The notes beneath the pieces were generated by a model. The model saw only the letters and a program-made list of their open reading frames with translations, had not been told where the DNA came from and did no database searches. The translations under genes were made by a program, and so were the position numbers. 64,000 bases of DNA, taken from NCBI RefSeq assembly GCF_041549525.1, contig NZ_CP157456.1, positions 1,178,001-1,242,000 of the forward strand. The letters run 5' to 3'. Positions 15,373 to 46,008 of the stretch are shown here, in pieces; position 1 is the stretch's first letter; every line of letters starts with the position of its first letter. The DNA is from Paenarthrobacter aurescens (GTDB lineage: Bacteria; Actinomycetota; Actinomycetes; Actinomycetales; Micrococcaceae).

Positions 15373-15434
15373 GTTGCGGGGCCCGTTCTGCGTGGTTGGT
15401 TGGTGGTTTAGCGCGCAGAGCGGGCCCCGCAACG
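15373..15434 (+). repeat. Palindromic repeat, copy A
   Basis: A 62-nt imperfect palindrome. The left arm (15373-15392) matches the reverse complement of the right arm CGCAGAGCGGGCCCCGCAAC at 19 of 20 positions, the best pairing of the seven copies found in this window. It sits between the kinase start codon and copy B. Confidence 0.9.
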
Positions 15435-15447
15435 GATCCGGCAATGC

Positions 15448-15507
15448 GTTGTGGGGCCTGATGTGCGCCTTTTGAGCCAGGAATGGCGCGCAGAGCGGGC
15501 CCCGCAA
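15448..15507 (+). repeat. Palindromic repeat, copy B
   Basis: Same element and orientation as copy A, 13 nt further on. The right arm CGCAGAGCGGGCCCCGCAA is kept intact, while the left arm (GTTGTGGGGCCTGATGTGCG) carries several substitutions. It ends 90 nt before the DUF559 gene. Confidence 0.9.
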
Positions 15508-15596
15508 GTCTTGTGGAGGAGTAGTCAGGTGGGCCTCCGGGGGCCGATTCTGTGGATAACCGAATGCGAGCCATCGTTTCCCGCAAGCATGGACCC

Positions 15597-16526
15597 ATGC
15601 GGAAGATCACCCCTTTGCCAATGGACATCAACCCACAAGGCTTCCTTGTAACCGACGCGTACGCTTCCGGCGTTCCACGGTGGCGGCTCCAAACCAAAGA
15701 ACTCGTGACGCCGAGTCGGGGCATTCGTATCGCCGCGACGAACGAACGCGACCTCGAACTGCTCGCGCGGCTGCACACGGCAGTCACTCCGCGCTGCGCA
15801 ATCAGTCACGTCACGGCAGCACTGTTATGGTCCATGCCGCTGCCCATTTACCTCCAGGACGAGGGCAAGAGCGGGCCAATCCATGTAACCCGACGGCAAG
15901 AGATCGGCAGGGTGAAGCGTCGCGGAGTGATAGGACATCGGGCTCCGCTGCTTGCCCGGGACGTTCGCGTGGTGAACGGGGTTCGACTGACATCGCCGGA
16001 ATGGACATGGGTGGATCTGGCCAGACACATGGGAAGGTCGTCCCTCGTGGCAGCTGGCGATTCTTTGCTGTCCAGGGAAAATCCCTTGTCCTCGATCGAA
16101 GCCATCCATGAAGTTATTGATCGGCGTCCCAAGGTCAAGGGAATCAGAATGGCCCGGGAAGTTCTGACGTTGCTGAGGACGGGCGTCGATTCCCCTCAAG
16201 AGTCAAGGCTGCGTCTGAAAATCGTCGACGCCGGACTGCCGGAGCCAGAAATTACCGCACCGATCTTCGACGAGCACGGGAGTTACATATCCACCCCTGA
16301 TCTCCAGTACAAGGAGTACAAAATTGCCATGGAGTATGAGGGTGATCATCACCGCTCGGACCCGGTGCAATGGGGCAAGGACATCGAACGCGACGATCGG
16401 CTTCGCGCCTTGGGGTGGATCGTTCTGAAATTTTCCGATGTCCAGATGAAAGGCGGGTGGGCCAACGCGGAACGGAAGGTGCGCGATGCGTTGGTGTCGC
16501 GCAGGTGGCGAGGGCCGTCGTCGTAG
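15597..16526 (+). CDS. DUF559-type (Vsr-like) nuclease-fold protein with AbiEi-like N-terminus
   Basis: It has 309 residues. The N-terminal ~200 residues resemble the winged-helix/AbiEi-type region common in actinobacterial proteins of this layout ([44 protein letters not shown]). The C-terminal ~110 residues are a DUF559 or very-short-patch-repair-like PD-(D/E)XK fold, with E in [16 protein letters not shown], then [19 protein letters not shown] and a terminal [11 protein letters not shown]. No partner toxin gene is adjacent. It is bracketed by palindromic repeats on both sides and breaks the purN-purH neighbourhood. Starts at 15552 (GTG) and 15564 (ATG) are possible; 15597 fits the family's usual beginning. 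Activity as a nuclease is unproven. Confidence 0.72.
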
Positions 16527-16867
16527 TTTCTCGTCTGCCGAGTTGTGGGGCCTGGTGTGCGGCCTTCGTGCCGGGAGTGGGACGCAGAGTGGGCCTCGCA
16601 ACGCAGGAGCCACCAACTTGTGGGGCCGGGTGTGCGGCCTTGGCGCCGGGGAAGGCACGCAGAGTGGGCCCCGCAACGGAGGGGGGCAACGTGTGGGGCC
16701 GGGTGTGCGGCCTTGGCGCCCGGAATGGCGCGCAGAGTGGGCCCCGCAACGGAGGAGCAGCCAAAAGACGCAAAACGGGGCCAACCACGAAACGCGATAA
16801 ACTCTCCGTATCCCACCACCCGCGATACCACCCCGCGACATCTACGCGAACTAAGACGGAGACTTTT
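16527..16867 (+). repeat. 341-nt gap holding tandem palindromic repeats, copies C, D and E
   Basis: Three 62-nt copies of the palindromic element at 16542-16603, 16617-16678 and 16690-16751, starting 75 and 73 nt apart, all in the same orientation as copies A and B. Right arms are nearly identical (CGCAGAGTGGGCCYCGCAACG); left arms read TTGTGGGGCC or GTGTGGGGCC then KGGTGTGCGGCCTT. D and E are closest to each other. The remaining ~115 nt before purH contain its leader and the ribosome site CGGAG; I see no riboswitch. Confidence 0.9.
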
Positions 16868-18538
16868 GTGAGCTTGACGCAGCTTGACCGTGTTCCCATC
16901 CGCCGTGCACTGATCTCGGTTTACGACAAGACGGGACTGGAGGAGCTCGCGAAGGGCCTGCACGCAGCCGGCGTCGCCATCGTTTCCACCGGCTCCACCG
17001 CCAAGAAGATCGCCGCCGCAGGCATCCCGGTGAAGGAAGTCGAAGAAGTCACTGGCTCCCCGGAAATGCTGGACGGCCGCGTCAAGACCCTGCACCCGCG
17101 CGTGCACGGCGGCATCCTGGCTGACCGTCGCGTCCCGGCGCACATGGACACGCTCGCCGGCATGGAGATTGAAACTTTCGATCTTGTTGTGGTGAACCTC
17201 TACCCGTTCGTGGAGACTGTAAAGTCCGGCGCAGCGCAGGATGACGTTGTTGAGCAGATCGACATCGGAGGCCCCGCCATGGTGCGTTCGGCCGCGAAGA
17301 ACCACGCCGCCGTCGCCATCGTCACGGACCCCAACTTCTACGGCGCAGTAGTGGACGCCGCAGCACATGGCGGTTTCGACCTCAACACCCGCAGGCGCCT
17401 GGCTGCCAAGGCGTTCGCGCACACGGCCAGCTACGACAATGCTGTTGCTACTTGGACTGCCAGCCAGTTCCTGGACGAAGACGGCGACGGCATCATTGAC
17501 TGGCCCGCCTACGCCGGCCTGTCCCTGGAACGCTCCGAGGTCCTCCGCTATGGCGAAAACCCGCACCAGCAGGCCGCGCTTTATGTGGACAAGGCTGCTC
17601 CGGCGGGAATCGCCCAGGCTGACCAGCTGCACGGCAAGGCCATGAGCTACAACAATTTCGTGGATGCCGATGCAGCCCTCCGCGCTGCGTTCGACTTTGC
17701 CGAGCCCGCCGTTGCGATCATCAAGCACGCTAACCCGTGTGGTGTCGCGGTCGGTTCCGCTGACGCTGCCGATCCGATCGCGGATGCCCACGCCAAGGCC
17801 CACGCCTGCGATCCCGTCTCCGCTTTCGGTGGCGTGATTGCTGCCAACCGCACTGTCACCGCCGGCATGGCCCGCACGGTTGCGGACATCTTCACCGAGG
17901 TTGTCATCGCCCCGGACTTCGAGCCTGAAGCGGTGGAGATCCTCTCCAAGAAGAAGAACATCCGCCTCCTCGCCCTGCCTGAGGGCTACGGCCGCTACCC
18001 CTCCGAGATGCGCCAGGTATCAGGCGGCGTCCTGGTTCAGATGAGCGACAAGGTGGACGCCGACGGCGACAACCCCGCCAACTGGACCCTCGCAGCCGGT
18101 GAAGCCGCTGACGAAGCAACCCTCGCGGACCTCGCCTTCGCCTGGACCGCCTGCCGTGCGGCCAAGTCCAACGCCATCCTGCTGGCCAACCATGGTGCAG
18201 CCGTGGGCATCGGCATGGGCCAGGTCAACCGCCTGGACTCCTGCCGCCTGGCCGTGGAGCGGGCCAACACGCTGGGCGTGACGGTGGAGTCCGACGTCGA
18301 AGGTGCTGGCGGCGCGTCCAACACCAGCGGTGGCGACGCACCTGAGCGAGCACGCGGTGCCGTTGCAGCCTCGGATGCGTTCTTCCCGTTTGCTGATGGT
18401 CTGGAGATCCTGATCAACGCCGGTGTCCGCGCCGTGGTCCAGCCTGGCGGTTCGGTCCGCGACGAGGAAGTCATCGCCGCAGCCAACGCTGCAGGCATCA
18501 CGATGTACTTCACCGGCGCACGCCACTTCTTCCACTAG
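16868..18538 (+). CDS. purH: Bifunctional AICAR transformylase / IMP cyclohydrolase
   Basis: A 556-residue cytosolic enzyme catalysing the last two steps of IMP synthesis, using 10-formyl-tetrahydrofolate. Residues 10-150 are the cyclohydrolase domain ([53 protein letters not shown]). The transformylase domain has [13 protein letters not shown], the catalytic Lys-His of [13 protein letters not shown] and the end [15 protein letters not shown]...GARHFFH. It is a little longer than usual (about 520). The GTG at 16868 has GGAG 6 nt upstream. The substrate AICAR (ZMP) is the ligand class sensed by the riboswitch before glyA at 48.1 kb. Confidence 0.96.
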
Positions 18539-18607
18539 TCCCCACCGCCGCCCTAACCTCGCTGCGCTTCGGCCAGGGAACCCGGGCGGCGTGGGCCCAC
18601 AACGAAA

Positions 18608-18642
18608 ACGGCGGCCGCCCCCGCGAAGGGGACGGCCGCCGT
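18608..18642 (+). terminator. Terminator hairpin after purH
   Basis: ACGGCGGCCG and CGGCCGCCGT at the ends (18608-18617, 18633-18642), extended by CCCC/GGGG inside, form a strong hairpin about 70 nt after the purH stop, followed by CGTGCTTTATT. Confidence 0.75.
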
Positions 18643-18697
18643 CGTGCTTTATTAGTCGTGCTTTATTAACAGGGACGTGCCTACAAAAGAGTGTCCG

Positions 18698-19702
18698 CTA
18701 CGAAGCCGCTGCAGCAGTGTTGTAGGTGGACTGGATGACGGTGCCCCAGTAAGGGCCGTACATGGTGGTGGAGTTGCTGCCGTATCCGTAGCTGTTCACG
18801 GAGTTCTGGTAGCCGGTGGAGCTGGTGCCGATGAACCACGGACCGCCCGAGGAACCACCGGTCATGTTGCAGGGGATGCCCTGGCTGTTGAACTGCGGGT
18901 TGTAGGGATCGTTGGTGGCTTTGCCGGAGCAGCTCTTGAGCGATTCACCGTTGAAGGGCGAGCCTGCCGAGTAACCGAAAGCCTTGTAGCTCAGGCCGCG
19001 GGCGGCGTTGAACTGGACGCCTGAGGAACCCACAACGTCGGCGAGGCGCTGGCCGTTGAGGGTGTTCATGACGGCGAAGGCGGTGTCGTACTGCATGTTG
19101 CCGTTGGAGGCCCACTGGGTGGGGGCGTACAGCGCCTTTGCCGTCCACTTCCCGTAAGGTGCTGCACCGTTGAGGTAGGCGGGAACGAAGACGAAGTTGG
19201 TGGCGTAAGCGCCCGGGCCTTCGTTGAGGCAGTGCCCGGCGGTGGACACGGTGCTCTTGTTGGCGGCGGTGACGGAGTTGCCTGAGCAGACGTAGTTGGA
19301 GCCGCCCAAGGTGAAGAAGATCTTGCCAATGTGCTTGACCGGCGTCTCGCTCTGGTTCACCTTGCGGTCGATCGTCTTGGCGTCGGTTGCTGCGGGCTGG
19401 CCGGCGATGCTGCTGATGGCGCCCGGGGCTTCGGTGACCGGGGCTTTGCCGAAGTTGAGGAGTTTGCCGCGTTCGAGTGCTTTTGCGGCGAGGATTTCGC
19501 CGGACTTGGCGTTCTTCATGCGTTCGGGGGTCCAGTAGTCTGCAGCGCCGGCGTCGGACACTACATGGCTGCTGACCGCAGCGCCGCTTGAGTCTGTGGT
19601 GTTGACCGGTGCCGCGTTGGCGCTGGTGGTTCCAACCAGCGCCAGGATTGCGGCAGCGGACAGACTCAGCAGGCTTGTGGCCAAGGTCTTGGTTTTTGTC
19701 AC
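18698..19702 (-). CDS. Secreted trypsin-like serine protease
   Basis: A 334-residue precursor. A Sec signal (TLATSLLSLSAAAILALVG, then ANAAPVN as cleavage region) is followed by a propeptide of about 100 residues. The chymotrypsin-fold domain has the catalytic His in VSTAGHCLNEG, the Asp in MQYDTAFAVMN and the Ser in NMTGGSSGGPWF, with cysteine pairs NYVCSGN/GHC and KSCSG/IPCNM likely in disulfides. It resembles secreted trypsin-like or glutamyl endopeptidases of actinobacteria. The GTG at 19702 has AGGA 6 nt upstream. The gene is monocistronic, convergent to purH and divergent from icd. Confidence 0.88.
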   Translation of the reverse strand: MTKTKTLATSLLSLSAAAILALVGTTSANAAPVNTTDSSGAAVSSHVVSDAGAADYWTPERMKNAKSGEILAAKALERGKLLNFGKAPVTEAPGAISSIAGQPAATDAKTIDRKVNQSETPVKHIGKIFFTLGGSNYVCSGNSVTAANKSTVSTAGHCLNEGPGAYATNFVFVPAYLNGAAPYGKWTAKALYAPTQWASNGNMQYDTAFAVMNTLNGQRLADVVGSSGVQFNAARGLSYKAFGYSAGSPFNGESLKSCSGKATNDPYNPQFNSQGIPCNMTGGSSGGPWFIGTSSTGYQNSVNSYGYGSNSTTMYGPYWGTVIQSTYNTAAAAS

Positions 19703-22266
<2,564 letters not shown>

Positions 22267-22272
22267 CCCTCC

Positions 22273-22337
22273 GGAGTTTTCGTACAGATAATGCCCCTAA
22301 GACCGCGTCTTGGGGGCATTATCTGTACAAAAACTCC
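22273..22337. terminator. Bidirectional terminator with 31-nt arms, icd / oxidase
   Basis: Arms 22273-22303 and 22307-22337 pair over 31 positions with only a C-A mismatch and one T-G wobble, around a 3-nt loop (CGC). The ends are GGAGTTTT and AAAACTCC, giving T-runs on both strands, as in a bidirectional intrinsic terminator. The right arm touches the stop codon of the minus-strand oxidase. Confidence 0.9.
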
Positions 22338-23446
22338 TAGCGCTCCGCGTGGAACCGCTCCGGTGCCATGCCGCCGTCCACGATGTCTTTGAGCACCCGG
22401 CCGATAGCGGGCGTGAACTTGAAACCGTGACCCGAGAAGCCTGCGCCCACCACCAGCGGGCCGAAGTGGTCCAGCACAAAGTCCTCGTTGGGCGTGGTGG
22501 TGTAGGTGCAGCTGATGGGAACCGCGGTGGAAGGGTCGACGCCGGGAAGCCACTCTTCTGCGTACCTCACCAACGCTTCCATCTGGTGGGGGATGGGCTC
22601 GAACGTGCGCTCGTCCGGGTCCATGACCGGGCCGACCCCATGCCAGCCGGCTTTGACGCCTTCGCCGGGGGTGAGCATGCCGTAAACGGGGCTGTACCAG
22701 TACTCGTAGGCTTCGTTGTTCGGGTCTGGGTCCGGGCTGTGGTTGAAGCTGGGCCACACCAGCGTGTTGTCCCTGGGCGTGAAGTGGGCCGGTTGTTCCT
22801 GGGTGACCACCAAGGCCGGGAGCTTGACGTGCTTGCTGACTAGCTTGTTGGTCCACGCACCTGCTGCGACCACCACGCGGCTGGCCGTGTACTCCACCTC
22901 CTCGGTCACCACCACCACCGATTCTGCGCCGTCGATGCGGATGTCCAGGACCGGCGTCGAGTAGTGGAAAACGGCCCCGTGGGCTTCGGCGGATTTCCGC
23001 AGCGCCACCAGGGCGTCTGCCGAGCGGATCCGGCCGGAGCCCGGCACAAAGAGGACGTCGGTGGCGAAGTTCATGCCCAGCCACCGGTTGGCTGCCTCGT
23101 CCGGGGAGATGAAGTAGCTCTCGATGCCCCGTGCCTCGTGCGCTTCCCGGACCTCCCGAAGGCGGGGGACGTTTCCGTGATTCACGAGGCCCACCATGTC
23201 CAGCAGCGGTGCGCCGTGCTCGGCAGCGAGCTCGTCCCACAGGATCTTGGACTCGGCCAGGAGGTCCAAGTAGTCGGCCTCGGCGTAGGCGGTGTTGAAG
23301 TTGCGGGTGGCGCCGTGCGAAGCGCCGATGTGGTGGCCGGCCTCAAATTGCTCCAACAGAACCACTGAGCGACCCGCTCGGGCCAGCTGCCAGGCGGCCG
23401 CCGATCCCATGGCTCCTCCGCCAACAACTACAACGTCAACCTGCAT
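22337..23446 (-). CDS. FAD-dependent sarcosine / N-methyl-L-tryptophan oxidase family
   Basis: A 369-residue flavoenzyme of the MSOX/MTOX (SolA) family, which demethylates N-methyl amino acids giving formaldehyde, amino acid and H2O2. It has the dinucleotide motif VVVVGGGAMGSAAAWQLARA at residues 5-24, the ASHGATRNFNTAY region typical of MSOX, and the conserved SCTYTTTPNEDFVLD whose cysteine is the usual covalent FAD site. GGAG lies 5 nt before the ATG at 23446. A large hairpin separates it from the phosphonate transporter genes, so it has its own transcript. The exact N-methyl substrate is unknown; an N-alkyl aminophosphonate is conceivable. Confidence 0.82.
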   Translation of the reverse strand: MQVDVVVVGGGAMGSAAAWQLARAGRSVVLLEQFEAGHHIGASHGATRNFNTAYAEADYLDLLAESKILWDELAAEHGAPLLDMVGLVNHGNVPRLREVREAHEARGIESYFISPDEAANRWLGMNFATDVLFVPGSGRIRSADALVALRKSAEAHGAVFHYSTPVLDIRIDGAESVVVVTEEVEYTASRVVVAAGAWTNKLVSKHVKLPALVVTQEQPAHFTPRDNTLVWPSFNHSPDPDPNNEAYEYWYSPVYGMLTPGEGVKAGWHGVGPVMDPDERTFEPIPHQMEALVRYAEEWLPGVDPSTAVPISCTYTTTPNEDFVLDHFGPLVVGAGFSGHGFKFTPAIGRVLKDIVDGGMAPERFHAER

Positions 23447-23518
23447 GCCTGCTCCATCCACAATGGCCCTCTTGAAACGCGACCCCGAAACAGGGCCACT
23501 CCCATTCTGCCCCCACTG

Positions 23519-23586
23519 ACCCAAGTAAGGAGCAGATCAGGCCGTTCCCAGCGCTGAAAACGGCGTGATCTGCTGTTTGCTTGGGT
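23519..23586 (-). terminator. Compound hairpin terminator after phnE
   Basis: Nested arms ACCCAAG/CTTGGGT (23519-23525, 23580-23586), AGCAGATCA/TGATCTGCT (23531-23539, 23566-23574) and CCGTT/AACGG (23542-23546, 23559-23563) stack into one long stem just after the phnE stop. It isolates the phn operon from the oxidase gene downstream. Confidence 0.75.
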
Positions 23587-23598
23587 GAGCCGGGGAGG

Positions 23599-24453
23599 TT
23601 ACGCGGCCAGGCGCCTGCGGATCCACGCGGAGAACTGGTCCACCACAATGATCAGCACCAGCACAATCAGGATGTGCGTGAGCATGGAATCGAACTGGAA
23701 CGACTTGATGGACTGATTGATCAGCAGCCCGATGCCTCCAGCACCCACCAGGCCAAGCACCAGCGAGGATCGCACATTGACGTCGAAGCGGTACAGCAGC
23801 AGGCCCACGAATTGCGGCACCACCATGGGCAGCGTTGCATTGGCTACCTGCTGGATCCGGTTGGCGCCGGCGGTGCGGAGGGCTTCCTGCGGGCCGGCAT
23901 CGATCTCCTCCATGGATTCCGCCCAGAGCTTCCCCATCACACCGGTGTTATGGCAGATCAGCGCGAGGACGCCCGCGAACGGCCCAAGACCCACAGCGGT
24001 GACAAAGATCAGCGCGAACACGATGTCCGGCACTGCACGGAAGAAGGACAACACCGCTCGCGCAGCTTGGTACACCAAACGGTGCGGGCTGGTGTTCTCA
24101 GCAGCCAACGCCGCCAGCAACAGGGCGAACGGCACGGAGAGTGTGGTCCCGAGCAGACCAATCCAGAGGGTGACCAGTGTGGCTTCGAGCCCGGGCTTGA
24201 GGGTCTTCTCCCAGCTGAGGTCCGGCGGGAACGCGTCACCGACGAAAGCGGCCATGCCCTTCCAACCATCCACCAGCAGTTCCGGTTTGAAGTCCGTCCC
24301 CTCGATGGCCACGGCGTGAAGTCCGACGACGGCGGCCGCCACTGCCGCCGTCGTGACCCATCGCAGCGGTTTCTTGGGGCGGACCAGTGCCACGCGGGTT
24401 TTGCTTGAGGCGTCCCGGCGGGCGACAGTCGGGGTCAGGGTATGCGGTGTCAT
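23599..24453 (-). CDS. phnE: Phosphonate ABC transporter permease
   Basis: A 284-residue inner-membrane subunit with a basic N-terminus and about six helices. The binding-protein-dependent permease signature is visible as EALRTAGANRIQQVANATLP (EAA loop), and VRSSLVLGLVGAGGIGLLI is the PhnE-type end. The ATG at 24453 overlaps the phnC stop as ATGA. It forms the membrane channel of the PhnCDE importer. Confidence 0.9.
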   Translation of the reverse strand: MTPHTLTPTVARRDASSKTRVALVRPKKPLRWVTTAAVAAAVVGLHAVAIEGTDFKPELLVDGWKGMAAFVGDAFPPDLSWEKTLKPGLEATLVTLWIGLLGTTLSVPFALLLAALAAENTSPHRLVYQAARAVLSFFRAVPDIVFALIFVTAVGLGPFAGVLALICHNTGVMGKLWAESMEEIDAGPQEALRTAGANRIQQVANATLPMVVPQFVGLLLYRFDVNVRSSLVLGLVGAGGIGLLINQSIKSFQFDSMLTHILIVLVLIIVVDQFSAWIRRRLAA

Positions 24454-33149: not shown

Positions 33150-33172
33150 GCTTGTGGTGCTGCTAAACGGTG

Positions 33173-35593: not shown

Positions 35594-35637
35594 TGTTTAG
35601 GTCCTTGTGTCAGGAAGGGGTGAGGCTGTGCCATCGG

Positions 35638-37194: not shown

Positions 37195-37280
37195 CAGCCC
37201 TTACGCCTCCAATGCATGACTTCGTTGTCGGCCCCGCAATGGCGAGGCTGTCTGATGAAAAAGTAAACTGGATCACTGGT

Positions 37281-37305
37281 CTTGTCGTCAAGACTTGAAC
37301 GCATG
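37281..37305 (-). promoter_or_regulatory. Probable ROK-repressor operator over the mmsA promoter
   Basis: A 25-bp stretch beginning CTTGTCGTCAAGA and ending TGAACGCATG on the plus strand matches 38541-38565 at 22 of 25 positions. On the coding strand it contains TTGACG, a good -35 hexamer for mmsA. The inner part CTTGTCGTCAAG is itself nearly palindromic (CTTG/CAAG). Confidence 0.7.
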
Positions 37306-37323
37306 ATCCAGCTAACGATTTCG

Positions 37324-38514
37324 TTACCTACCGGTAATACCGGCGTGTTGGAACACCAAAGCGGCCGCTCCAAGCGCTTCTGCGCGCGCCCCGAGGGAGG
37401 ACATCGCGAGGTGCGTCGTCTCGCCCACCACGGGTACTGCATGGCGCACAAGACCCCTGCGGATGGGATCCAGGAGGAGGTCGCCCAGGCCCGCCAAGGG
37501 CCCTCCCACCACAATCACTTCAGGGTTAATCAGGTTGGAAACGTTGCCCAGCGCGCGGCCCACCGCCAGCCCGGCGTCGTCCACTACGCGTTGGGTGGCG
37601 GAGTCTCCGGCGAGGCAATTACGGACGATGTCCTGCGGGGTCAGCAGCGTCTCCTGGCCGCGGCCCAGCAGCTCGATCATGGTGGTGGTGGACGCTATGG
37701 TCTCCAGGCAGCCCCTGTTTCCGCAGCGGCACACCAGGCCGTGTTCGTGGATGGTCGCGTGGCCGATTTCCCCGGTGATGCCAACGTTGCCGTAGTAGGG
37801 AAAACCATTGAGAATCAGGCCCGCGCCAATGCCCGAGCCGATCTTCAGGAACATCAGATTTGAGACTCCGCTCTGCGGTCCCCAGGTCACTTCGGACAGC
37901 GCGCCCAAGTTGGCATCGTTATCAACAAACACGGGGCAATTCAGCGCTTCCTCCAGCCTATGAAGGATGTCTATGCCTACCCATTCGGGCAAGATGGCGC
38001 CCTGGGCCACGGTGCCTGATCGCCGGTCGATGGGTCCAGGGATGCCCGCCCCGGCACCCACAACTGCCGTGCGGTCGATTCCGTTTTCCTGGAGTAGTTT
38101 TTCCAGCAGCAGGACGGCCGCGGCTATGCCTTCTTCCGCCTGGTGCCCCAGCGGCAATTCAATGTAGTCCTCGGCAATGACGTGGTAGCCCAGCGAGGCG
38201 AGGACTACCCGCAGATGGCGGCGTCCGAAGTCGATTCCTACCGCCACTGCGCCGTTGCTGTTCAGCCGTACGTTGGTTGCCCTGCGTCCGGAGCTGGTAG
38301 TGGGCTCCGTGGAAACAAGGCCGGCGTCCTGCATGATTTTGACGATGTTGGAAACAGTTGCCGTGGAAAGACCTGTTTGCCGCGATAGCTCTGCTTGCGT
38401 GGAAGGCCCGCTCAGGAGGCACTCGATGATGCGCTGCTGATTCAGGTGGCGCAGTGCGGACTGCGAGCCGGGTTTTCTTGGATGGCTCTTCGTTGAGCGC
38501 TGCGTTGCGGGCAT
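37324..38514 (-). CDS. ROK-family transcriptional repressor
   Basis: It has 396 residues. An N-terminal winged helix (LNQQRIIECLLSGPSTQAEL, then SRQTGLSTATVSNIVKIMQ) is followed by the ROK sugar-kinase-like domain: VAVGIDFGRRHLRVVLASLG, GAGAGIPGPIDRRSG, CPVFVDNDANLGALSE, and the zinc motif CRCGNRGCLE. Such proteins bind a sugar and release DNA. It lies directly upstream of the sugar transporter operon on the same strand and shares an operator motif with it. The ATG at 38514 is favoured; an upstream TTG would add seven residues. Confidence 0.9.
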   Translation of the reverse strand: MPATQRSTKSHPRKPGSQSALRHLNQQRIIECLLSGPSTQAELSRQTGLSTATVSNIVKIMQDAGLVSTEPTTSSGRRATNVRLNSNGAVAVGIDFGRRHLRVVLASLGYHVIAEDYIELPLGHQAEEGIAAAVLLLEKLLQENGIDRTAVVGAGAGIPGPIDRRSGTVAQGAILPEWVGIDILHRLEEALNCPVFVDNDANLGALSEVTWGPQSGVSNLMFLKIGSGIGAGLILNGFPYYGNVGITGEIGHATIHEHGLVCRCGNRGCLETIASTTTMIELLGRGQETLLTPQDIVRNCLAGDSATQRVVDDAGLAVGRALGNVSNLINPEVIVVGGPLAGLGDLLLDPIRRGLVRHAVPVVGETTHLAMSSLGARAEALGAAALVFQHAGITGR

Positions 38515-38836
38515 GACAAGAAGATTGCCCCACAAGCGCGCTTGTAGTCAAGAAGTGAACGCATGGAGCCGGGCATTACCGACATACTCCAACGCAATAA
38601 TCTCCCTCCAATACCCCATACGTACCCCTTGTGGGGCCTGCTATGCGTTCCAAGTTCAGGGTTTGGGGCGCAGAGCGGGCCCCACAACGCAAGGGGTGGG
38701 GGCAATGCGTCCCGATTGCATTCCTTGCGGGTCCAATTGCCCCGCACGATTCGTCCCACCCGCGCCTACGCTGGAAGAAGAAACCTCCCGGGCCCTCTCA
38801 AAAGCACCGGGAACAGGCGAAAGCAAGGTGGTAAAG
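38515..38836. promoter_or_regulatory. 322-nt divergent promoter region, ROK / davA
   Basis: It holds a perfect palindrome ACAAGCGCGCTTGT (38532-38545), the second copy of the 25-bp ROK motif (38541-38565, CTTGTAGTCAAGA...TGAACGCATG) that includes TTGACT as -35 for the ROK gene, and copy F of the palindromic repeat (38628-38689). The davA promoter must lie in the last ~140 nt, where I see no clear hexamers. Confidence 0.7.
38628..38689 (+). repeat. Palindromic repeat, copy F
   Basis: Same 62-nt element and orientation as copies A-E: left arm CTTGTGGGGCCTGCTATGCG and right arm CGCAGAGCGGGCCCCACAACG. The pairing is extended outward by CCCCTT/AAGGGG. It marks the left edge of the lysine-degradation module. 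Confidence 0.9.
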
Positions 38837-39670
38837 ATGCTGCTCTCAGTCCTGCAGGCGAACGCGTCCGTGATGGACGTCGAGGCGAACCTGCGCATAA
38901 TCGACGACGCCGCGCAGCGAGCCGCCCACGCGGGTGCCGGGCTGCTCCTCACCCCTGAGTTGTTCCCTGTGGGCTATGCCCCGCTGCGTCTTCACGCCGA
39001 ACTTGACCCCGCCACACTCCCCGGGATCCGTGAACGCCTGGCCGGTATCGCCCGCCGGCACAAGATCGGCCTGGTCTACAGCCTTCCGGCGCCAAGCCGG
39101 GACGCAGCGCACGACGACGACGCGCAGCCGGCTGCCGCTGGCAACGGCTGGAACATCACAGCTACTTTGCTTGACGCCACAGGTACTGAAGTTCTCAACT
39201 ACGCCAAGGTGCACCTGTTCGGCCCCGAGGAGCACAAGGCGTTCGTGGCCGCCCAAGAACCTCCCGTCGTGGTGGATTTCAACGGAATCCGGACCTCCAT
39301 GCTCATCTGCTACGACGTCGAGTTCCCCGAAGCCGTCCGCGCCGCAGCCACCAGGGGCGCCGAGCTCCTCCTGGTTCCAACAGCCCTTTCCGCAGGCTTC
39401 GAGAACGTGCCGCAGGTCCTGATCCGTGCCCGTGCCTTGGAAAGCCAGCTCAACGTGGCCTACGCCAACCACAGCGGACATGAAGACATCTACAACTTCC
39501 TGGGCGGCAGTGTGGTGGCCGGACCGGACGGTTCCTTGCTTGCTGCGGCGGGGGAGTCCCCAACGTTGCTGTTCGCCGAAGTGGGCACGGAAACAGTGAA
39601 AGCCGCCCGCGTTGAAGTGCCGTATCTGCGCGAACGCCGTCCGGAGCTCTATGAACAGTGGGACGCCTAG
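38837..39670 (+). CDS. davA: Carbon-nitrogen hydrolase, probable 5-aminovaleramidase
   Basis: A 277-residue nitrilase-superfamily amidase with the complete catalytic triad: Glu41 in LLLTPELFPVGY, Lys124 in LNYAKVHLFG and Cys158 in SMLICYDVEFPEAVRAAA. Length matches DavA of Pseudomonas (about 265). Because a DavB-type lysine 2-monooxygenase lies in the same module, it most likely hydrolyses 5-aminovaleramide to 5-aminovalerate; other omega-amidase substrates remain possible. AAGG lies 8 nt before the ATG. Its stop codon overlaps the stop of the convergent PucR gene (CTAG). Confidence 0.75.
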   Translation: MLLSVLQANASVMDVEANLRIIDDAAQRAAHAGAGLLLTPELFPVGYAPLRLHAELDPATLPGIRERLAGIARRHKIGLVYSLPAPSRDAAHDDDAQPAAAGNGWNITATLLDATGTEVLNYAKVHLFGPEEHKAFVAAQEPPVVVDFNGIRTSMLICYDVEFPEAVRAAATRGAELLLVPTALSAGFENVPQVLIRARALESQLNVAYANHSGHEDIYNFLGGSVVAGPDGSLLAAAGESPTLLFAEVGTETVKAARVEVPYLRERRPELYEQWDA

Positions 39671-41337
39671 CCGACCGTCCCTCCTGCGGGGAGTCCAGCC
39701 ACCAGTTCGTCCACGTACTGCAAGGCGAACCAGAGCTCGGCGCGCACCTGCGCCTGGTTCAGGTCCATGTCCAGCAGTTCGGCCAGTACGCCGATCTGCC
39801 GCCGCACACTGTTCCGGTGCAGTCCCAGCAGTTTGGCGGATCCGTCCCAGCTGCCGTTTTCGCTGAGCCAACCCCGCAGGACGGCCAGCAAAGGGTCGCG
39901 GCGATCCGGTTCCAAAGCGAGTACGGGGGATAGCAGCCGTTCGGCCAATAGGGTCCCGGCTTCGCGGCCCAAGAGTCCCGCCACGGACCACGTCACCTCA
40001 TCCACCCGTGCGCTCTTGCCGGTTGCCACCACGCGGCCGCGCAGAGAGCTCACCCTTTGGTAGGCGGCCTGGAGGCCCAGAAGTTCCGTGGGTTCGCCAA
40101 TGACCAGCCGCCAGCCAAGCTTCTCCACATCGGCGAGCAACGTCTCATCCACCTTGAAGCGTGTAATGGCCGCGAAACCGTAATCGGTGATCTCCACCAG
40201 CTTGGTGTCAAAAAGCCTGCGCCATTGCAGAAGCTCGCGGACCGGGCCATCATCCGCGCCATCCACCCTGACGCCCTGGACTACCCGCATCTGCCCAGAT
40301 CTTGTGGAAGCCAGGCTTTGGGCCAGCAGGTCTTTGAGGCCGTTGACGTGCTTAGTGCCGCCCGAGGTCACCGATTCAGGATGCAGCAGCATCGCCGTGG
40401 CCAGCTGGCTTGGTGCCAAGGATCCGCTGGTCCGCTGCCGAACCAGCAATTCCAGCAAGCCCACAGCGGACTGCACCACATTGTTCTGCGCAGGCGTCAG
40501 GGGAGTATCCGAACCGAGAATCAGGGCACCCAGGTTGGCGTCCTTGGTGCTGCGCAGCGGATGCCCAAACACCAACGCTGAGCCGGGTTCTTCAAAACCA
40601 TCCATCTCCACGCGCGGACCGCTGCCGGAAAGCAACCGCTCCAGCATGGGCGCAAGCAAGGAAAGCTCGACGCCGCTGCTGCCGCCGGCACCCTGCCCGC
40701 CTGCACCCTTCCCGGCTGCGGCCTGGCGCCCGGCGCCCTTCCCGGCGGTGCTGTGCCCGCGCGCCCGAACCCGCCCGTCGGCGCCCACCAGAACAGCCCA
40801 CACGGGCACCCGTTGCACGAGGGCCGCCAGCAGTTCGTGCTCCGGCCTGGGGGAGAGGACCGCCCGCATGAGTTGCCGGTTGGTCTCGGCCAGCTGACGG
40901 AAAACCCGCGCATTGTCAGACTCCAGGAGCTGGGAAAACTCCAGCCCGATCGCTGCGAACGGCACGGACTCCGGTACCTCGAACAGGGTGAGGTTGTACT
41001 TCCGGCAGGCGTGGAGCAGAACATCAGGGACGGCGTCGAAATAGGGCCTGATGCCGAAGCCGAGCGCCGCCACCTTGGCCTCTACGAGCCGCTGAACATA
41101 GGCGTCCACCTTGGCCGCCGAGCCGCCCTCCCCGAGGAAAGGCAGCCCGGCGGTCAGGAGGAACTCGCCCTCCGGCAGGTACGGTGTGGGGTCTTCAAGC
41201 TCACTGGGTTCAACCCACCGCAGCAGCGAGGTGCCGCTGCCGCCGTCGTGAAGCATTTTCAACTCCGGCGGCAGCTGCTCCAGGAACTGGTCCAGCGTGA
41301 CAAAACTCAGGCGGGCGGTGGCGGGCTCAGGCAACAT
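39667..41337 (-). CDS. PucR-family transcriptional regulator
   Basis: A 556-residue regulator. The N-terminal PucR sensory domain is recognisable (LRWVEPSELEDPTPYLPEGE, LLTAGLPFLGEGG, KVAALGFGIRPYFDAVPDVL). A Gly/Ala/Lys low-complexity linker follows (GKGAGRQAAAGKGAGGQGAG), then a GGDEF-like central domain, and a C-terminal HTH_30 (GWLSENGSWDGSAKLLGLHR, NSVRRQIGVLAELL). Family members activate catabolic operons in response to purines or amino acids. The gene sits inside the lysine module between amidase and racemase and overlaps the racemase by 11 nt, so it is the expected local activator. Confidence 0.85.
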   Translation of the reverse strand: MLPEPATARLSFVTLDQFLEQLPPELKMLHDGGSGTSLLRWVEPSELEDPTPYLPEGEFLLTAGLPFLGEGGSAAKVDAYVQRLVEAKVAALGFGIRPYFDAVPDVLLHACRKYNLTLFEVPESVPFAAIGLEFSQLLESDNARVFRQLAETNRQLMRAVLSPRPEHELLAALVQRVPVWAVLVGADGRVRARGHSTAGKGAGRQAAAGKGAGGQGAGGSSGVELSLLAPMLERLLSGSGPRVEMDGFEEPGSALVFGHPLRSTKDANLGALILGSDTPLTPAQNNVVQSAVGLLELLVRQRTSGSLAPSQLATAMLLHPESVTSGGTKHVNGLKDLLAQSLASTRSGQMRVVQGVRVDGADDGPVRELLQWRRLFDTKLVEITDYGFAAITRFKVDETLLADVEKLGWRLVIGEPTELLGLQAAYQRVSSLRGRVVATGKSARVDEVTWSVAGLLGREAGTLLAERLLSPVLALEPDRRDPLLAVLRGWLSENGSWDGSAKLLGLHRNSVRRQIGVLAELLDMDLNQAQVRAELWFALQYVDELVAGLPAGGTVG

Positions 41338-42574
41338 GGCCCTGCCCTGCTGTGCCCGGCTCCTGGTAGTCGGGGCACTCGTAGGCGCTGTCCTGGTGGG
41401 CGCCGTTGGCGTAGGCGCGGGGGAGGCGGGGCGCGATCCTGTTGATGATCTCGTCCCCGTGGCTGCCGATTGCGGCACCCCAGTGGTCGGCGCTCGCCGC
41501 CCCGCACGCGGGGTCCCCGAACAGGACGGCAGTGTCCCCAACGGCAATCCCGGAAGCATCCGGCCCCAGGTCCACCATGAATTGATCCATGCAGACCTTG
41601 CCGATTACGGGCACGCTGCGGCCGGCAATGTTCACCACGGAACGGCCGCTGATGCCTTTGGGTATGCCGTCCGCGTAGCCGAGAGGAATGAGCCCGAGGT
41701 ATCTGGGTTCGTAGGTGATGGCCTGGTGCTCGTAACTGACGCCGGTGCCTGCCGGGACCTTCTTGACCATCACCAAGGGGGCCGTGACACTGAGCGCGGG
41801 CCGCAGTCCGAAGTCCGCCGGATTCAGGTGATCGGCCGGGGCAAGTCCGTAAATGGCCAGGCCCGCGCGGACCATGTCGAAGTGGAATTCCGGCCTGTCC
41901 AGGATGTTCGCAGAGCTGGACACGTGCCGGAGCCCGGGGTTCAACCCGGCTTTCCGTGCCTCGGTGACGGCATCCTCGAACTCCGCCACGGCGGTGGCGT
42001 TGCCGGGGTGCGCCGGGACATCGGCCCAGGCCAGGTGGGTCCAGAGGCCTCGAACACGGAGAGTGCCATCGAGCTCGGCTTGCCGTGCTTGTGCCACGAG
42101 TTCCGCCCAATCCTCCTTGCGCGCGCCGCCGCGGCTGAGGCCGCTGTCCAGCTCCAAATGCACGACGGCGGGACGGCCAAGGCGTTTGGCGATCCCTGCC
42201 AGGACCTCCAGTTGGCTGACGCTTCCGAGGGAAACATCGATGTCATTTTCCAGTGCCTCAAGGATGGTGGCACTGGTCTGGGATGCCAGATACAGCCAGG
42301 AGAGGATGGGCACGGTGATGCCCGCCTGGCGAAGTGAGATTGCCTCGCTGAGCTGCGCAGTTCCCAGCCAGTCGGCCCCTGCTTCCACAGCTGTCCGGGC
42401 CACCTCCACCAGGCCGTGGCCGTAGGCGTTTCCCTTGACCACTGCCATGAAGAACGGCGCTTCGGTGCGCTTTTTCAGGGCTTTGACGTTCTCTGAAATG
42501 GCGGACAGATCCACGGTGACCTGACCGGAAAGGGCTGCCGGAGCTGCCTCTTGATAGTGTGCATTACGTCTCAT
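41327..42574 (-). CDS. alr: Alanine-racemase-family PLP enzyme, possibly a lysine racemase
   Basis: A 415-residue type III PLP enzyme. The Schiff-base Lys47 lies in FFMAVVKGNAYGHG (most Alr have KADAYGHG, here KGNAYGHG), with the catalytic tyrosine region GVSYEHQAITYEPRYLG, then IPLGYADGIPKG and GKVCMDQFMVDLG. Length is slightly over the usual ~375. No signal peptide. Its place between the permease and PucR genes suggests it converts D-lysine (or other D-amino acids) to the L-form used by the monooxygenase, but ordinary alanine racemization for cell-wall synthesis cannot be excluded. Confidence 0.85.
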   Translation of the reverse strand: MRRNAHYQEAAPAALSGQVTVDLSAISENVKALKKRTEAPFFMAVVKGNAYGHGLVEVARTAVEAGADWLGTAQLSEAISLRQAGITVPILSWLYLASQTSATILEALENDIDVSLGSVSQLEVLAGIAKRLGRPAVVHLELDSGLSRGGARKEDWAELVAQARQAELDGTLRVRGLWTHLAWADVPAHPGNATAVAEFEDAVTEARKAGLNPGLRHVSSSANILDRPEFHFDMVRAGLAIYGLAPADHLNPADFGLRPALSVTAPLVMVKKVPAGTGVSYEHQAITYEPRYLGLIPLGYADGIPKGISGRSVVNIAGRSVPVIGKVCMDQFMVDLGPDASGIAVGDTAVLFGDPACGAASADHWGAAIGSHGDEIINRIAPRLPRAYANGAHQDSAYECPDYQEPGTAGQGHVA

Positions 42575-42582
42575 GGTTGAAC

Positions 42583-42621
42583 ACTATAGGTCATTTTGCA
42601 CCATTGTGAGAGGTGGCTCAC
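42583..42621. promoter_or_regulatory. Divergent alr / permease promoter with GTGAG-N6-CTCAC dyad
   Basis: On the minus strand TATAGT (42583-42588) is 8 nt from the alr ATG, a near-leaderless -10. GTGAG (42606-42610) and CTCAC (42617-42621) form a dyad between the two promoters, a candidate site for the PucR regulator encoded next door. Confidence 0.5.
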
Positions 42622-42672
42622 ATGCCAGTCTTGTGGAGGGGAAATCGAAACTACTTTGAAGGGACGTCAAGG

Positions 42673-44199
42673 GTGACTGTGCCTGTGAACACCAAAAACC
42701 CGGCAGTGGCCACTGCCGCCAGGCCGAGCCTGGGTGCGCAATTGCTGCGCCGCAAGCCCATCGGCCAGATGGTCAGCGAGGCCGGAAGCGGCGAGGGCGG
42801 CACTCCGCTGGTCCGAAGCTTCGGGGTCCTCCAACTGACCATGATCAGCGTTGGCGCCACGCTGGGAACCGGCATCCTGGTGATCTTGGGCGAGTCCGTG
42901 CCGCTGGCAGGGCCGGCCATTTGGATCTCGTTCGTTATTGCCGGCCTGGCCGCGCTGCTCTCCGCAGTCTCCTACGCCGAAATGGCCGGGCTCGTACCGG
43001 TGGCAGGCTCCAGCTACTCCTACTCCTACGCCACCATGGGCGAAGGAATGGCCTGGATCTGCGGCTGGTGCCTGGTACTGGAATACGCGGTCTCCGTTGC
43101 AGCCGTTGCTGTAGGCGCAGGCCAGTACGTCAACGAGACCCTCGCAGCCTTCGGCCAGGTTCTGCCTGACGCCATGAGCCAGCCTCCAGGAGACGGTGGG
43201 CTGGTGAACGTTCCGGCCATGGTGATCGTGGTCCTGGCCATGATTCTGCTGGTTCGGGGAGCGCGCGAGAGTGCATGGATCAACACTGCAATCGTCATCA
43301 TCAAGGTGGGTATCCTGGTCTTCTTCTGCGCCGTGGCCTTCACCGCCTTCAACGCAGGGAACTTCGAGCCGTTGCTGCCCATGGGCGCGGCCGGCGTTTC
43401 AGCCGCAGCATCCAGCGTCTTCTTCTCCTACATCGGATTCGACGCCGCCTCCACAGCCGGTGAGGAAGCCAGGAACCCCAAGCGCGATCTTCCCCGGGCC
43501 ATCATGCTTTCCATGGTGATCGTTACCACCATCTACGTTCTGGTTGCCGTAGCAGCAATCGGTGCCCGCCCCTGGAACTGGTTCGACGGTACCGAAGCTG
43601 CCTTGGTGCAGATCCTCCACGAGATCACCGGACAACCCTGGATTGCCTTGGTCTTCTCCATTGGTGCTGTCCTGGCCATCGCCAGCATCGTCCTCACCGT
43701 GCTCTACGGCCAAACCCGCATCATGCTCTCCATGTCCCGCGACGGCATGGTTCCCAAGGTCTTCGGCCGCGTATCCCGCCGTACCGGCACTCCGGTGGCA
43801 GGCACGCTGATCATCGGCACCGCCGTCGCCCTCACCGCAGGCTTGGTCCCGCTGGGTGCGTTGGCGGACGCCACCAGCATCGGCACGCTCTTTGCCTTCG
43901 CCCTGGTCAACGTCGCCGTCATCTACCTGCGGCGCAACCGCCCGGACCTTCAGCGGAGCTTCCGGGTCCCGCTGTACCCCATCACGCCGATCCTGGGCAC
44001 CCTGATGTGTGCCTACCTGATGCTCAACCTGGGCGCCGATACCTGGATCACCTTTGGCATCTGGATGCTGGTAGGGATCGCCATCTACTTCGGCTACGGA
44101 CGCCGGAACTCCAAGGTAGCCGCGCTCAGCGAGCAGGACTACCGTGAATTAACCACCAGGGCCGTGAGCCCGGAACCTGTGAAAGCAGAAAACTCATGA
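42673..44199 (+). CDS. APC-family amino acid permease, probable lysine importer
   Basis: A 508-residue transporter with 12 predicted helices. Family marks are LTMISVGATLGTGILVILGE in TM1, PVAGSSYSYSYATMGEGMAW in TM3, and the loop SSVFFSYIGFDAASTAGEEA followed by RNPKRDLPRAI. It resembles cationic amino acid carriers (CAT/YhdG-like). It is translationally joined to davB by an ATGA overlap at 44196, so it should bring in the monooxygenase substrate. The GTG at 42673 is preferred by ribosome-site spacing; a GTG at 42685 is possible. Confidence 0.87.
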   Translation: MTVPVNTKNPAVATAARPSLGAQLLRRKPIGQMVSEAGSGEGGTPLVRSFGVLQLTMISVGATLGTGILVILGESVPLAGPAIWISFVIAGLAALLSAVSYAEMAGLVPVAGSSYSYSYATMGEGMAWICGWCLVLEYAVSVAAVAVGAGQYVNETLAAFGQVLPDAMSQPPGDGGLVNVPAMVIVVLAMILLVRGARESAWINTAIVIIKVGILVFFCAVAFTAFNAGNFEPLLPMGAAGVSAAASSVFFSYIGFDAASTAGEEARNPKRDLPRAIMLSMVIVTTIYVLVAVAAIGARPWNWFDGTEAALVQILHEITGQPWIALVFSIGAVLAIASIVLTVLYGQTRIMLSMSRDGMVPKVFGRVSRRTGTPVAGTLIIGTAVALTAGLVPLGALADATSIGTLFAFALVNVAVIYLRRNRPDLQRSFRVPLYPITPILGTLMCAYLMLNLGADTWITFGIWMLVGIAIYFGYGRRNSKVAALSEQDYRELTTRAVSPEPVKAENS

Positions 44200-45902
44200 C
44201 CATTGCCACAGAACTCCCCGTCGTCGGGAAACCCGGAGCGCCCGGGGCCGACGCCGGAGCCCCCATCACCATGCTGAACCCGGACTTCCCGTTCAGCTAC
44301 GATCACTACCTGGCCCACCCGGACGGGCTCGGTTCTGTTCCCGAGGAGCTCTACGGCACGGAAGTGGCCATCATCGGCGCAGGGCTGTCCGGTCTGGTGA
44401 CCGCCTACGAACTGATGAAGCTCGGCCTCAAACCAGTGATCTACGAGGCCGACCAGATCGGCGGCCGTCTTCGCACTGCCAGTTTCCCGTCCGCCCCGGG
44501 CATCGTGGCTGACCTTGGTGGAATGCGGTTCCCCGTCTCCGGCAAGGCGTTCTACCACTACGTGGACCTGCTGGGCCTGGATACCAACGAGTTTCCCAAC
44601 CCCATGGCACCGGCCACGTCCTCCACGGTGATTGAACTCGCCGGCAAAAAGCACTACGCCACCACCGCGGACGAGCTCCCCGAATTCTTCCGCGAGGTGG
44701 CCGACGCCTGGAAAGCGGCAGTCAACGATGGTGCTGCCTTCGCTCAGATGCAGGAAGCCATCAAGGCCCGCGATACCAAGAGGATCAAGGAACTCTGGAA
44801 CGCGCTCCTCCCGGAGTTGGACGAGCAAACCTTCTACGGTTTCATCGCCGCCAGCAAGTCCTTCAAAGAGGCAGGCTTCGCGCACCGCGAAGCGTTCGGC
44901 CAGGTGGGCTTCGGCACGGGCGGCTGGGACACCGACTTCCCCAACTCCATCCTCGAAATCCTCCGCGTTGTCTACACCGACGCCGACGACCAGCACCGCT
45001 CCATCGCCGGGGGAGCGCAAAGGCTCCCTGAGGCACTCTGGAACCACGCGCCGTCGGGCCTTAAATACTGGCCGGAAGGCACGTCGCTGGCGTCCCTGCA
45101 CAGTGGCTCTCCCCGCGGAGCGGTGGATAACATCCGCCGCGCGCAGGACGGCGACCTCGTGGTCCGCGAAAACTGGGGACGGGAAGCCAGCTACCAGGCC
45201 GTGGTGACCACGTGCCAGTCCTGGCTGCTGTCCACCCGCATCCACACTCAGGAAGCGTTGTTCCCCGCTGAGATGTGGACCGCCATTGAACGTTCGCACT
45301 ACATGCAGTCGTCCAAGACGTTCGTGATGGTGGACCGCCCGTTCTGGAAGGACATCGATCCTGAGACCGGACGCGAAGTCCTGTCCATGACGCTCACGGA
45401 CCGCCTCAACCGAGCCACGTACCTACTGGACGACGGTCCGGACAAGCCCGCCGTGATGCTCCTGTCCTACACCTGGAATGACGACGCCCTGAAGTGGCTT
45501 GCCCTCAGCGCGGAGGAGCGCGTCAAGCTCATGCTGCACTCGCTGGAGCAGATCTACCCGGGCGTGGACATTGCCAGCCACATTGTGGGACAGCCCATCA
45601 CCGTGTCCTGGGAAGCGGACCCCAACTTCATGGGTGCGTTCAAAGCCAACCTGCCCGGTCACTACCGCTACCAGCAGCGCCTCTTCACCCACTTCAAGCA
45701 GGACCAGCTGCCGGAGCACCAGCGGGGAATCTTCCTGGCCGGGGACGACGTATCCTTCACCGCCGGTTGGGCTGAGGGTGCCGTGACCACGGGCCTGAAC
45801 GCGGTGTGGGGAGTGGTGAACCACTTGGGTGGCGCATCCGCTGCCGGCAACCCGGGTCCGGGCGACCTCTTGGACGAGCTCGGCCCGATCTCGCTGGACT
45901 AA
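44196..45902 (+). CDS. davB: L-lysine 2-monooxygenase, FAD-dependent amine oxidase family
   Basis: A 568-residue flavoenzyme. The FAD motif EVAIIGAGLSGLVTAYELMK is near residue 56, ADLGGMRFPVSGKAFYHYVD follows, and the C-terminal half has YMQSSKTFVMVDRPFWKD, MLLSYTWNDDALKWLA and the FAD-closing GIFLAGDDVSFTAGWAEGAV. Both the beginning (NPDFPFSYDHYLAHPDGLG) and the overall pattern are those of lysine 2-monooxygenase DavB rather than tryptophan 2-monooxygenase IaaM, its nearest relative. It would convert L-lysine and O2 to 5-aminovaleramide and CO2, the substrate of the DavA-like amidase at 38.8 kb. Confidence 0.88.
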   Translation: MTIATELPVVGKPGAPGADAGAPITMLNPDFPFSYDHYLAHPDGLGSVPEELYGTEVAIIGAGLSGLVTAYELMKLGLKPVIYEADQIGGRLRTASFPSAPGIVADLGGMRFPVSGKAFYHYVDLLGLDTNEFPNPMAPATSSTVIELAGKKHYATTADELPEFFREVADAWKAAVNDGAAFAQMQEAIKARDTKRIKELWNALLPELDEQTFYGFIAASKSFKEAGFAHREAFGQVGFGTGGWDTDFPNSILEILRVVYTDADDQHRSIAGGAQRLPEALWNHAPSGLKYWPEGTSLASLHSGSPRGAVDNIRRAQDGDLVVRENWGREASYQAVVTTCQSWLLSTRIHTQEALFPAEMWTAIERSHYMQSSKTFVMVDRPFWKDIDPETGREVLSMTLTDRLNRATYLLDDGPDKPAVMLLSYTWNDDALKWLALSAEERVKLMLHSLEQIYPGVDIASHIVGQPITVSWEADPNFMGAFKANLPGHYRYQQRLFTHFKQDQLPEHQRGIFLAGDDVSFTAGWAEGAVTTGLNAVWGVVNHLGGASAAGNPGPGDLLDELGPISLD

Positions 45903-45913
45903 TCTCCCCTTAT

Positions 45914-46008
45914 ACGTTGCAAGGCCCGCTACGTTGCGAGGCCCGCTACGTTGCAAGGCCCGCTCTACGCCCCAAACCAATCGCGGGGGACGCAGAGCGG
46001 GCCTCGCA
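45914..46008 (+). repeat. Palindromic repeat, copy G, with triplicated left arm
   Basis: The left arm unit ACGTTGCRAGGCCCGCT (17 nt) is present three times in tandem (45914-45930, 45931-45947, 45948-45964; only one base varies). The loop and the usual right arm CGCAGAGCGGGCCTCGCA (45991-46008) follow. Same orientation as the other copies; it marks the right edge of the dav module. Confidence 0.9.

Follow-up and report, generated by a model that had tools for sequence, protein, structure and literature searches.

A 63-nt intergenic palindrome family of Paenarthrobacter aurescens and its candidate partner, an AbiEi-Vsr-like nuclease gene

Palindromes at the locus and across the chromosome

The window, that is, the whole 64,000-nucleotide stretch of the Paenarthrobacter aurescens chromosome analysed here, carries seven copies of a long palindrome, all on the forward strand and all found where the first-pass annotation had placed them. 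Copies A (15372..15434; arms 15374-15392 and 15414-15432, centre 21 nt) and B (15447..15509) are followed by a forward-strand gene at 15564..16526, called at 320 aa, and then by copies C (16541..16603), D (16616..16678) and E (16689..16751). Copy B ends ~55 nt upstream of the called start of this gene, which has purH and a gene for a BadF-type ATPase on its two sides. Copy F (38627..38689) separates a ROK regulator gene from one for a carbon-nitrogen hydrolase, and copy G (45949..46011) lies between two convergent genes. Copy G, originally given a greater length, is one unit (about 45951-46009); the extra sequence consists of two partial left arms, and three left-arm half-units thus follow each other at 17-nt steps (45913..45964, forward strand), the last being part of copy G itself. 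Genes were called with a simple purpose-made finder, and the names IS30-like, DnaN and purH were read from Pfam hits or from the sequence by eye.

The unit, previously described as an imperfect palindrome of 62 nt, is indeed palindromic and measures 63 nt (21+21+21, including the CG at both ends). The family extends beyond the window: the host chromosome has at least 73 copies at 43 places, arranged in tandem with as many as seven units per array. In 73/73 copies, inverted arms of ~21 nt flank a centre of exactly 21 nt whose sequence is free; where additional arms adjoin full copies, three more pairings arise, with spacings of 38, 52 and 53 nt. Outside these 73 copies, centres of 30 and 31 nt, about one helical turn longer, also exist. 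The right-arm pattern has 19 matches in the window at up to three mismatches, versus 3.1 +/- 1.7 in shuffles, and 103 in the whole genome at up to one mismatch, with 0 in the reversed control. Most clusters (39/43) are wholly intergenic, the remaining four overlapping a gene end by at most 28 nt. The palindromes are often near stop codons, with 37/43 clusters adjoining at least one gene 3' end, often within 16 nt, and 6/43 lying between divergent genes. The single orientation noted earlier holds within the window; genome-wide, both strands are used with a replichore bias, at 8:4 versus 3:13 when copies are summed per cluster (15/43 undecided; Fisher p = 0.019; P-values treat related genomes as independent) and at 20 to 5, with 18 equal, when only the first copy of each cluster is taken.

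Within the window family, the two arms show no covariation (833/903 paired cells versus 831.7 +/- 3.3 in shuffles), and with WC-to-GU substitutions (41) about as numerous as WC-to-AC substitutions (40), an RNA function argued from G-U tolerance was rejected. A stem extending into the centre was also rejected, its 196/430 paired cells being fewer than the 226 +/- 9 of shuffles. Arms of a sister family do covary (720/792 positions alike versus 681 +/- 5 in shuffles), and recognition may therefore involve a hairpin or cruciform. Among Rfam families, the palindromes in the window had no match, the sole hit at the gathering threshold being a ZMP-ZTP riboswitch at 48120-48205. The idea of a cassette, with a common gene between clusters, was dropped, since the other genes between clusters in the host genome look ordinary by eye.

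A candidate partner between copies B and C

Although the first-pass annotation reported no transposase or RAYT partner in the window, the gene between copies B and C is a candidate partner. Its product combines an AbiEi-like N-terminal part (residues 13-205; AbiEi profile, E=1.4e-5) with a Vsr/I-Bth0305I-like nuclease domain (residues 208-315); matches of the protein to PF18741 (22.9 bits) and DUF559 (18.1 bits) both fall under the Pfam cut-offs. VIA-align, applied to an AF2 model of the protein (pLDDT 93.7), recovered the AbiEi fold in the N-terminal 200 residues and a Vsr/I-Bth0305I-like fold, with conserved acidic and His residues, in the C-terminal domain. Foldseek alone gave no PDB match to the model at E<=0.001, and the family sequence profile gave only weak matches to the PDB (best 3hrl, E=0.006). 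The likely catalytic residues are invariant across 69 sequences, and the protein seems to be an AbiEi-Vsr nuclease and not a transposase. Relatives suggest a start 11 codons downstream, giving 309 aa instead of 320 aa; the stop flagged in 4/17 orthologues is at residue 2 or 11, upstream of this likely start.

Databases name members of the protein family 'DUF559', 'endonuclease domain-containing' or 'very-short-patch-repair endonuclease', and a Caulobacter DUF559/Vsr-like protein has been assigned a mismatch-repair role (PMC12907096). Plasmids and phages hold distant homologues only (7 and 1 records, respectively, <60% identity). In the portions of the open-licence PMC literature available to us, we found neither a description of DUF559/MTES_1575/AbiEi proteins paired with scattered palindromes nor a role for family proteins with an AbiEi-like part.

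Gene-palindrome pairing and the age of the sites

The adjacency of nuclease gene and palindromes was at first taken as chance, because none of the nine other weak PF18741 hits in the genome adjoins a copy of the family, a view later reversed by the flanks of orthologues and paralogues. An orthologue occurs in 17/35 genomes, all of them palindrome-rich, and in 17/17 cases the window palindrome lies on both sides of it. Paralogues likewise carry like sequence on both flanks, usually another palindrome family, in 65/76 cases within the genus (11/76 fail), versus 21/321 control genes, themselves taken from loci rich in palindromes; the 76 represent the higher scorers among 120 paralogue matches. 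We set the cut-off of the flank score at 16, and the contrast persists at cut-offs of 18-30 (from 61 down to 31 of 76 paralogues versus from 18 down to 7 of 321 controls). Neighbour genes at paralogue loci pass the test in 11/68 cases, many of them sharing a gap with the nuclease gene. Where a 3' palindrome was detected beside a paralogue, it begins 0-10 nt past the stop codon in 22/26 cases.

In an order-wide sample, the protein family was matched in at least 104/149 genomes, and the loci examined outside the genus (28) are the best matches from 28 of the 104 genomes with a match. Like sequence is present on both flanks in 24/26 of these loci, two failing, and a detectable palindrome (arm of at least 14) on both sides in 11/26 and on one or both in 20. 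The high scorers include L411, a long repeat in which no palindrome was detected, and L392, a 16-nt match.

The palindrome family switches with the protein lineage. Two further families are, among the matches listed, multi-copy mainly where the matching nuclease is encoded. Palindromes also occur without the gene, again among the matches listed: five genomes of the clade keep them, 21 arms of the family AACAACCACTAATGCCAG are present in G363 with no matching intact gene seen there, and low counts outside the gene's range include 12 arms in G289 and 9 in G359. The correlation between the gene and palindrome copy number is confounded with descent. Similarity across flanks rises with protein identity in a gradient that suggests co-evolution and that rests mostly on syntenic pairs, being weaker among non-syntenic ones (4/3560 below 50% identity, 11/81 at 60-70%, 8/54 at 70-80% and 3/4 above 80%).

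The sites themselves appear old. Positions are common to related species for 178/180 projected copies, the gaps left where copies are missing, at g2|g3 and the nuclease locus, resemble deletions with remnants, and 18 relatives gave no convincing case of recent insertion of the window family in the L173 region. In some species, other long palindromes take the place of the window family at the same site. In one genome (G354), the nuclease locus consists of one palindrome without the gene; another (G328) has transposase genes of another kind inside both palindromes beside one AbiEi-Vsr-type gene.

Candidate explanations and their implications

We consider it probable, at roughly 65%, that the palindromes serve as cognate sites for the product of the nuclease gene lying between copies B and C, nuclease and repeats making up a single system. 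Observed support for this reading comes from the fixed geometry, the many copies, the like sequence at gene flanks, the correspondence of palindrome family with protein lineage and the protein model with its two parts; binding, cutting and spreading by the AbiEi-Vsr protein are what we infer from it. AbiEi is described as binding a 23-3-23 bp operator with one subunit per arm (PMC3985639), and by analogy the AbiEi-like part would bind both arms, one subunit on each. Two Vsr-like nuclease domains would thereby be placed over the centre, which would explain why its length is fixed and its sequence free. A nick or cut at the centre, followed by repair, would copy the palindrome into other intergenic sites, and the same process could produce the tandem arrays and maintain the palindromes that flank the gene. 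For the window family, most of this spreading would be old, with the sites now vertically inherited.

An unlikely alternative is an operator network, in which an AbiEi-type autoregulator uses the gene-side palindromes as operators and the scattered ones as regulatory or roadblock sites, the nuclease domain serving otherwise. The AbiEi fold, the fixed spacing of the arms, the conservation of orthologous sites and the end of copy B ~55 nt ahead of the called start are consistent with this, as AbiEi is a repressor of its own promoter and binds a pair of inverted repeats (PMC3985639, PMC11062541). However, paralogues mostly have their detected 3' palindrome just past the stop codon, where no operator is needed, most scattered clusters adjoin 3' ends of unrelated genes, the arms seem richer in information than an operator requires, and the likely catalytic residues are invariant. 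A slightly less likely scenario is that the palindromes are of other origin and serve a homing nuclease gene as targets, each insertion leaving a palindrome on both sides. The I-Bth0305I-like domain, the transposase genes in the palindromes of G328 and the gene-less palindrome of G354, which looks as an unoccupied or vacated site would, all fit, whereas the single orthologue per genome despite tens of sites, the variation of palindrome family with protein lineage and the concentration of gene-less palindromes mainly within the gene's clade argue against it. Improbable, in our judgement, is that the repeats spread as terminators of transcription or stabilisers of mRNA 3' ends: proximity to gene 3' ends and substitution by other long palindromes would suit it, but by eye no T-run follows the arms, six clusters lie between divergent genes, the arms neither covary nor favour G-U changes, and the nuclease link is left unexplained. 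REP/BIME spread by RAYT, despite the general looks and tandem arrays, is highly improbable, given the fixed centre, the lack of complementary changes and the 0 matches to PF01797 (Y1_Tnp) in the host genome at E<=1, while 10/14 control genomes match.

The earlier reading as a REP/BIME- or MITE-like element is supported in part. RAYT is the REP-associated tyrosine transposase. REP/RAYT systems share with the present family short intergenic palindromes in many copies and tandem arrays, and a partner gene, here the AbiEi-Vsr gene, that co-occurs with its repeats and has them on both flanks. They differ in that the host genome is without a Y1/HUH match and in that the window family has non-covarying arms, a fixed centre length and sites conserved across species, whereas REP palindromes are stated to be kept by complementary changes (PMC2817692). 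MITEs are similarly multi-copy and non-coding with terminal inverted arms; these palindromes are only 63 bp long, with vertically conserved sites and no target duplications seen (the search for a DDE partner covered the neighbour genes). A presently mobile REP or MITE is therefore disfavoured by the conserved positions, the fixed centre, the absence of arm covariation and the lack of a Y1_Tnp match. With AbiE type IV toxin-antitoxin systems, the partner shares the AbiEi fold (wHTH plus C-terminal domain), and AbiEi too recognises a pair of long inverted half-sites set a constant distance apart; here, in contrast, a nuclease domain is fused, the sites are scattered genome-wide and no AbiEii nucleotidyltransferase toxin gene adjoins the partner gene in the window. 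The C-terminal domain has the fold of Vsr endonuclease and the homing endonuclease I-Bth0305I, but is fused to an AbiEi-like part and paired with scattered palindromes, with no intron or methyltransferase adjoining the gene in the window.

Returning to the nuclease and its cognate sites, we would tentatively extend this reading, at somewhat less than even odds, to the AbiEi-Vsr fusions of Actinobacteria as a widespread undescribed class of repeat systems, each owning a fixed-geometry palindrome family, binding its arms, cutting its centre and seeding copies beside genes by repair. If true, this class would parallel RAYT/REP by convergence, its enzyme being homing-endonuclease-like, and many unclassified long intergenic palindromes of these genomes would be explained. 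The pairing gives each AbiEi-Vsr protein a concrete candidate substrate and offers a partner to scattered palindromes for which RAYT is no explanation, making directly testable how RAYT-less bacteria gain and keep many ordered palindromes.

Structure, number and placement of the palindromes

All seven imperfect palindromes that the first-pass annotation reported in the window were found, and the genome-wide covariance-model search that it proposed for counting copies reveals further ones, giving at least 73 in the host chromosome. In regions read individually, these form 43 clusters: 27 consist of a single copy, 8 are pairs and 6 triplets, and the other two are arrays of five and seven units. 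The tandem step is 74-76 nt in 26 of 30 cases. When the right-arm pattern is run against the complete chromosome, a single contig of 4.36 Mb, it has 103 matches at ≤1 mismatch and its reversed control has none. Covariance-model matches, from a search in which 150 of 1089 candidates were scored, fall at the same kind of place, and each match listed covers all 64 model positions. In each unit, CGTTGYGRGGCCYGCTCTGCG is followed by 21 free bases and then by the arm in inverted form. This centre measures exactly 21 nt in 73/73 host copies, with three additional arm pairings traced to extra arms, and in 194/203 and 75/78 arm pairs of other species, where the exceptions have centres of 18, 20, 22, 24, 30 or 31 nt or an extra arm. 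Solitary extra half-units, at 22- and 32-nt steps, lie beside full copies in the host clusters at 1933366 and 3492331; copy G of the window likewise has extra half-units, at 17-nt steps.

Thirty-nine of the 43 clusters are wholly intergenic and the remaining four extend into the end of a gene, by at most 28 nt. A gene 3' end adjoins 37 clusters, often within 16 nt, and six lie between divergent genes. The origin-proximal 60% of the replichores holds 40/43 clusters (p=1e-6), on a map that uses the start of a DnaN-like gene at base 577 (by eye) and a terminus set at the midpoint. Other features of the window include a ZMP-ZTP riboswitch (48120-48205, 41.5 bits) and, directly after purH (18536-18600), a ~60-nt repeat of a separate family; among the matches listed, three relatives (G367, G348 and G355) carry it elsewhere in their genomes at 98-100% identity.

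Age of the sites and probable mode of recognition

Among 295 family genomes, more than 12 arms occur in four, all of the host's genus and including the host itself (among the matches listed), and an exact scan of named genomes recovered chiefly Paenarthrobacter and Arthrobacter records, again among the matches listed. A full copy is present at 105 of 120 named loci. Because 98 of these 105 align to the host cluster regions, which make up ~5% of its genome, and 178/180 projected copies lie ≤400 bp from a host copy, we infer from these alignments that the positions are old. In one region compared in 18 relatives the same gaps are occupied, by 0 to 7 copies, with deletion remnants in some gaps and other long palindromes as replacements in others. 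At site g1|g2 of four loci (L231, L233, L237 and L238) the window family is absent and a near-perfect palindrome, GTAACAGCACATGTCGCAATG..., fills the gap; by eye, it resembles those beside nuclease paralogues L320, L323, L331 and L338 of the same genomes.

Orthologous copies share 86% identity in the arms (measured on arms not used to find copies), 71% in the centres and 56-60% in the 30-nt flanks. The arms vary independently (833/903 cells paired vs 831.7 in shuffles), and one-sided changes to G-U (41) and to A-C (40) are equally common. Recognition of a hairpin fits this family less well than a pair of half-sites, held at constant spacing, that would be recognised in duplex DNA. Arms of the sister AACGACAAGTACGGAGCAATCG family do covary, so for the class as a whole either form may be recognised.

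Association with AbiEi-Vsr nuclease genes

Between copies B and C lies a gene (15564-16526, + strand) encoding an AbiEi-like part and a Vsr/I-Bth0305I-like domain. Orthologues (≥78% identity) are present in 17 of 35 genomes, all palindrome-rich (31-103 arms); the genomes that lack one comprise five of the clade with 25-40 arms and 13 others with 0-12 (both among the matches listed). Window-family palindromes occur on both sides of the orthologue in 17/17 cases. In 16 resolved relatives, the nuclease locus holds the gene with 3-8 copies in 11 and neither gene nor palindromes in four; in the last, G354, the gene is missing and a single palindrome is present, the outcome expected had the outer copies recombined.

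The association extends to paralogues, of which 76 loci (tblastn identity 32-42%) were examined, the better-scoring part of 120 paralogue matches in these genomes. A long palindrome lies 3' of the gene at 26 loci, 5' of it at 25 and on at least one side at 36, vs 7/81 control gaps, and in 22 of the 26 3' cases it begins 0-10 nt past the stop codon. A more sensitive test, for like sequence on both flanks of the gene, was passed by 65/76 paralogues and 16/17 orthologues vs 21/321 control genes; 11/68 genes next to the paralogues also passed. Outside the genus, the figures are 24/26 loci vs 0/14 controls. Between loci, palindrome similarity rises with protein identity, mostly via syntenic pairs.

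At ≤3 mismatches, the sister AACGACAAGTACGGAGCAATCG sequence reaches 11-33 occurrences in each of five genomes out of 35, whereas G306 has two, G408 has one and the other 28 have none; AbiEi-Vsr-family genes with adjoining palindromes of this type were found in G317, G308, G414, G302, G303 and G306, and neighbouring arms are offset by 34 in 36/36 listed pairs. Among the matches listed, AACAACCACTAATGCCAG (≤2 mismatches) occurs 55 times in G393, 28 in G403 and 27 in G359, all of which carry the matching nuclease gene, 21 times in G363, 12 in G354 and 0-6 times elsewhere, with an arm offset mostly of 30 (29 and 32 once each, by eye).

The window itself holds further palindromes. TTTTCGTACAGATAATGCCCC... 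(22273-22337) resembles by eye the one after a host nuclease paralogue (G000:3452576, L038), and AGCAGATCAGGCCGTTC... (23528-23574) shares a family with the pair flanking paralogue L344 of G348, to whose protein group none of the three host paralogues (E≤1e-10) belongs. Degenerate AGGGGTGAGCTCTCGGC... (9299-9367) resembles the sequences that flank paralogues L302 and L334, and host paralogue L040 belongs to their protein group.

Movement and comparison with RAYT and REP

In G303, two nuclease genes are 97% identical, and their similarity begins at the outer edge of the palindrome upstream and continues across the gene. In G328 (L318, 1-3927), both palindromes flanking one nuclease gene are interrupted, by two transposase genes (HTH_38 + rve) that we read as IS30-like. 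The first-pass annotation saw no RAYT partner in the window, and no Y1 transposase was found in the host genome. RAYT and REP nevertheless show the same arrangement as the AbiEi-Vsr gene and its palindromes, with an unrelated enzyme. We propose that the AbiEi part would likely bind both arms and the nuclease part could plausibly cut at the centre, after which, as a guess drawn solely from the copy numbers, the palindrome would be copied by repair.
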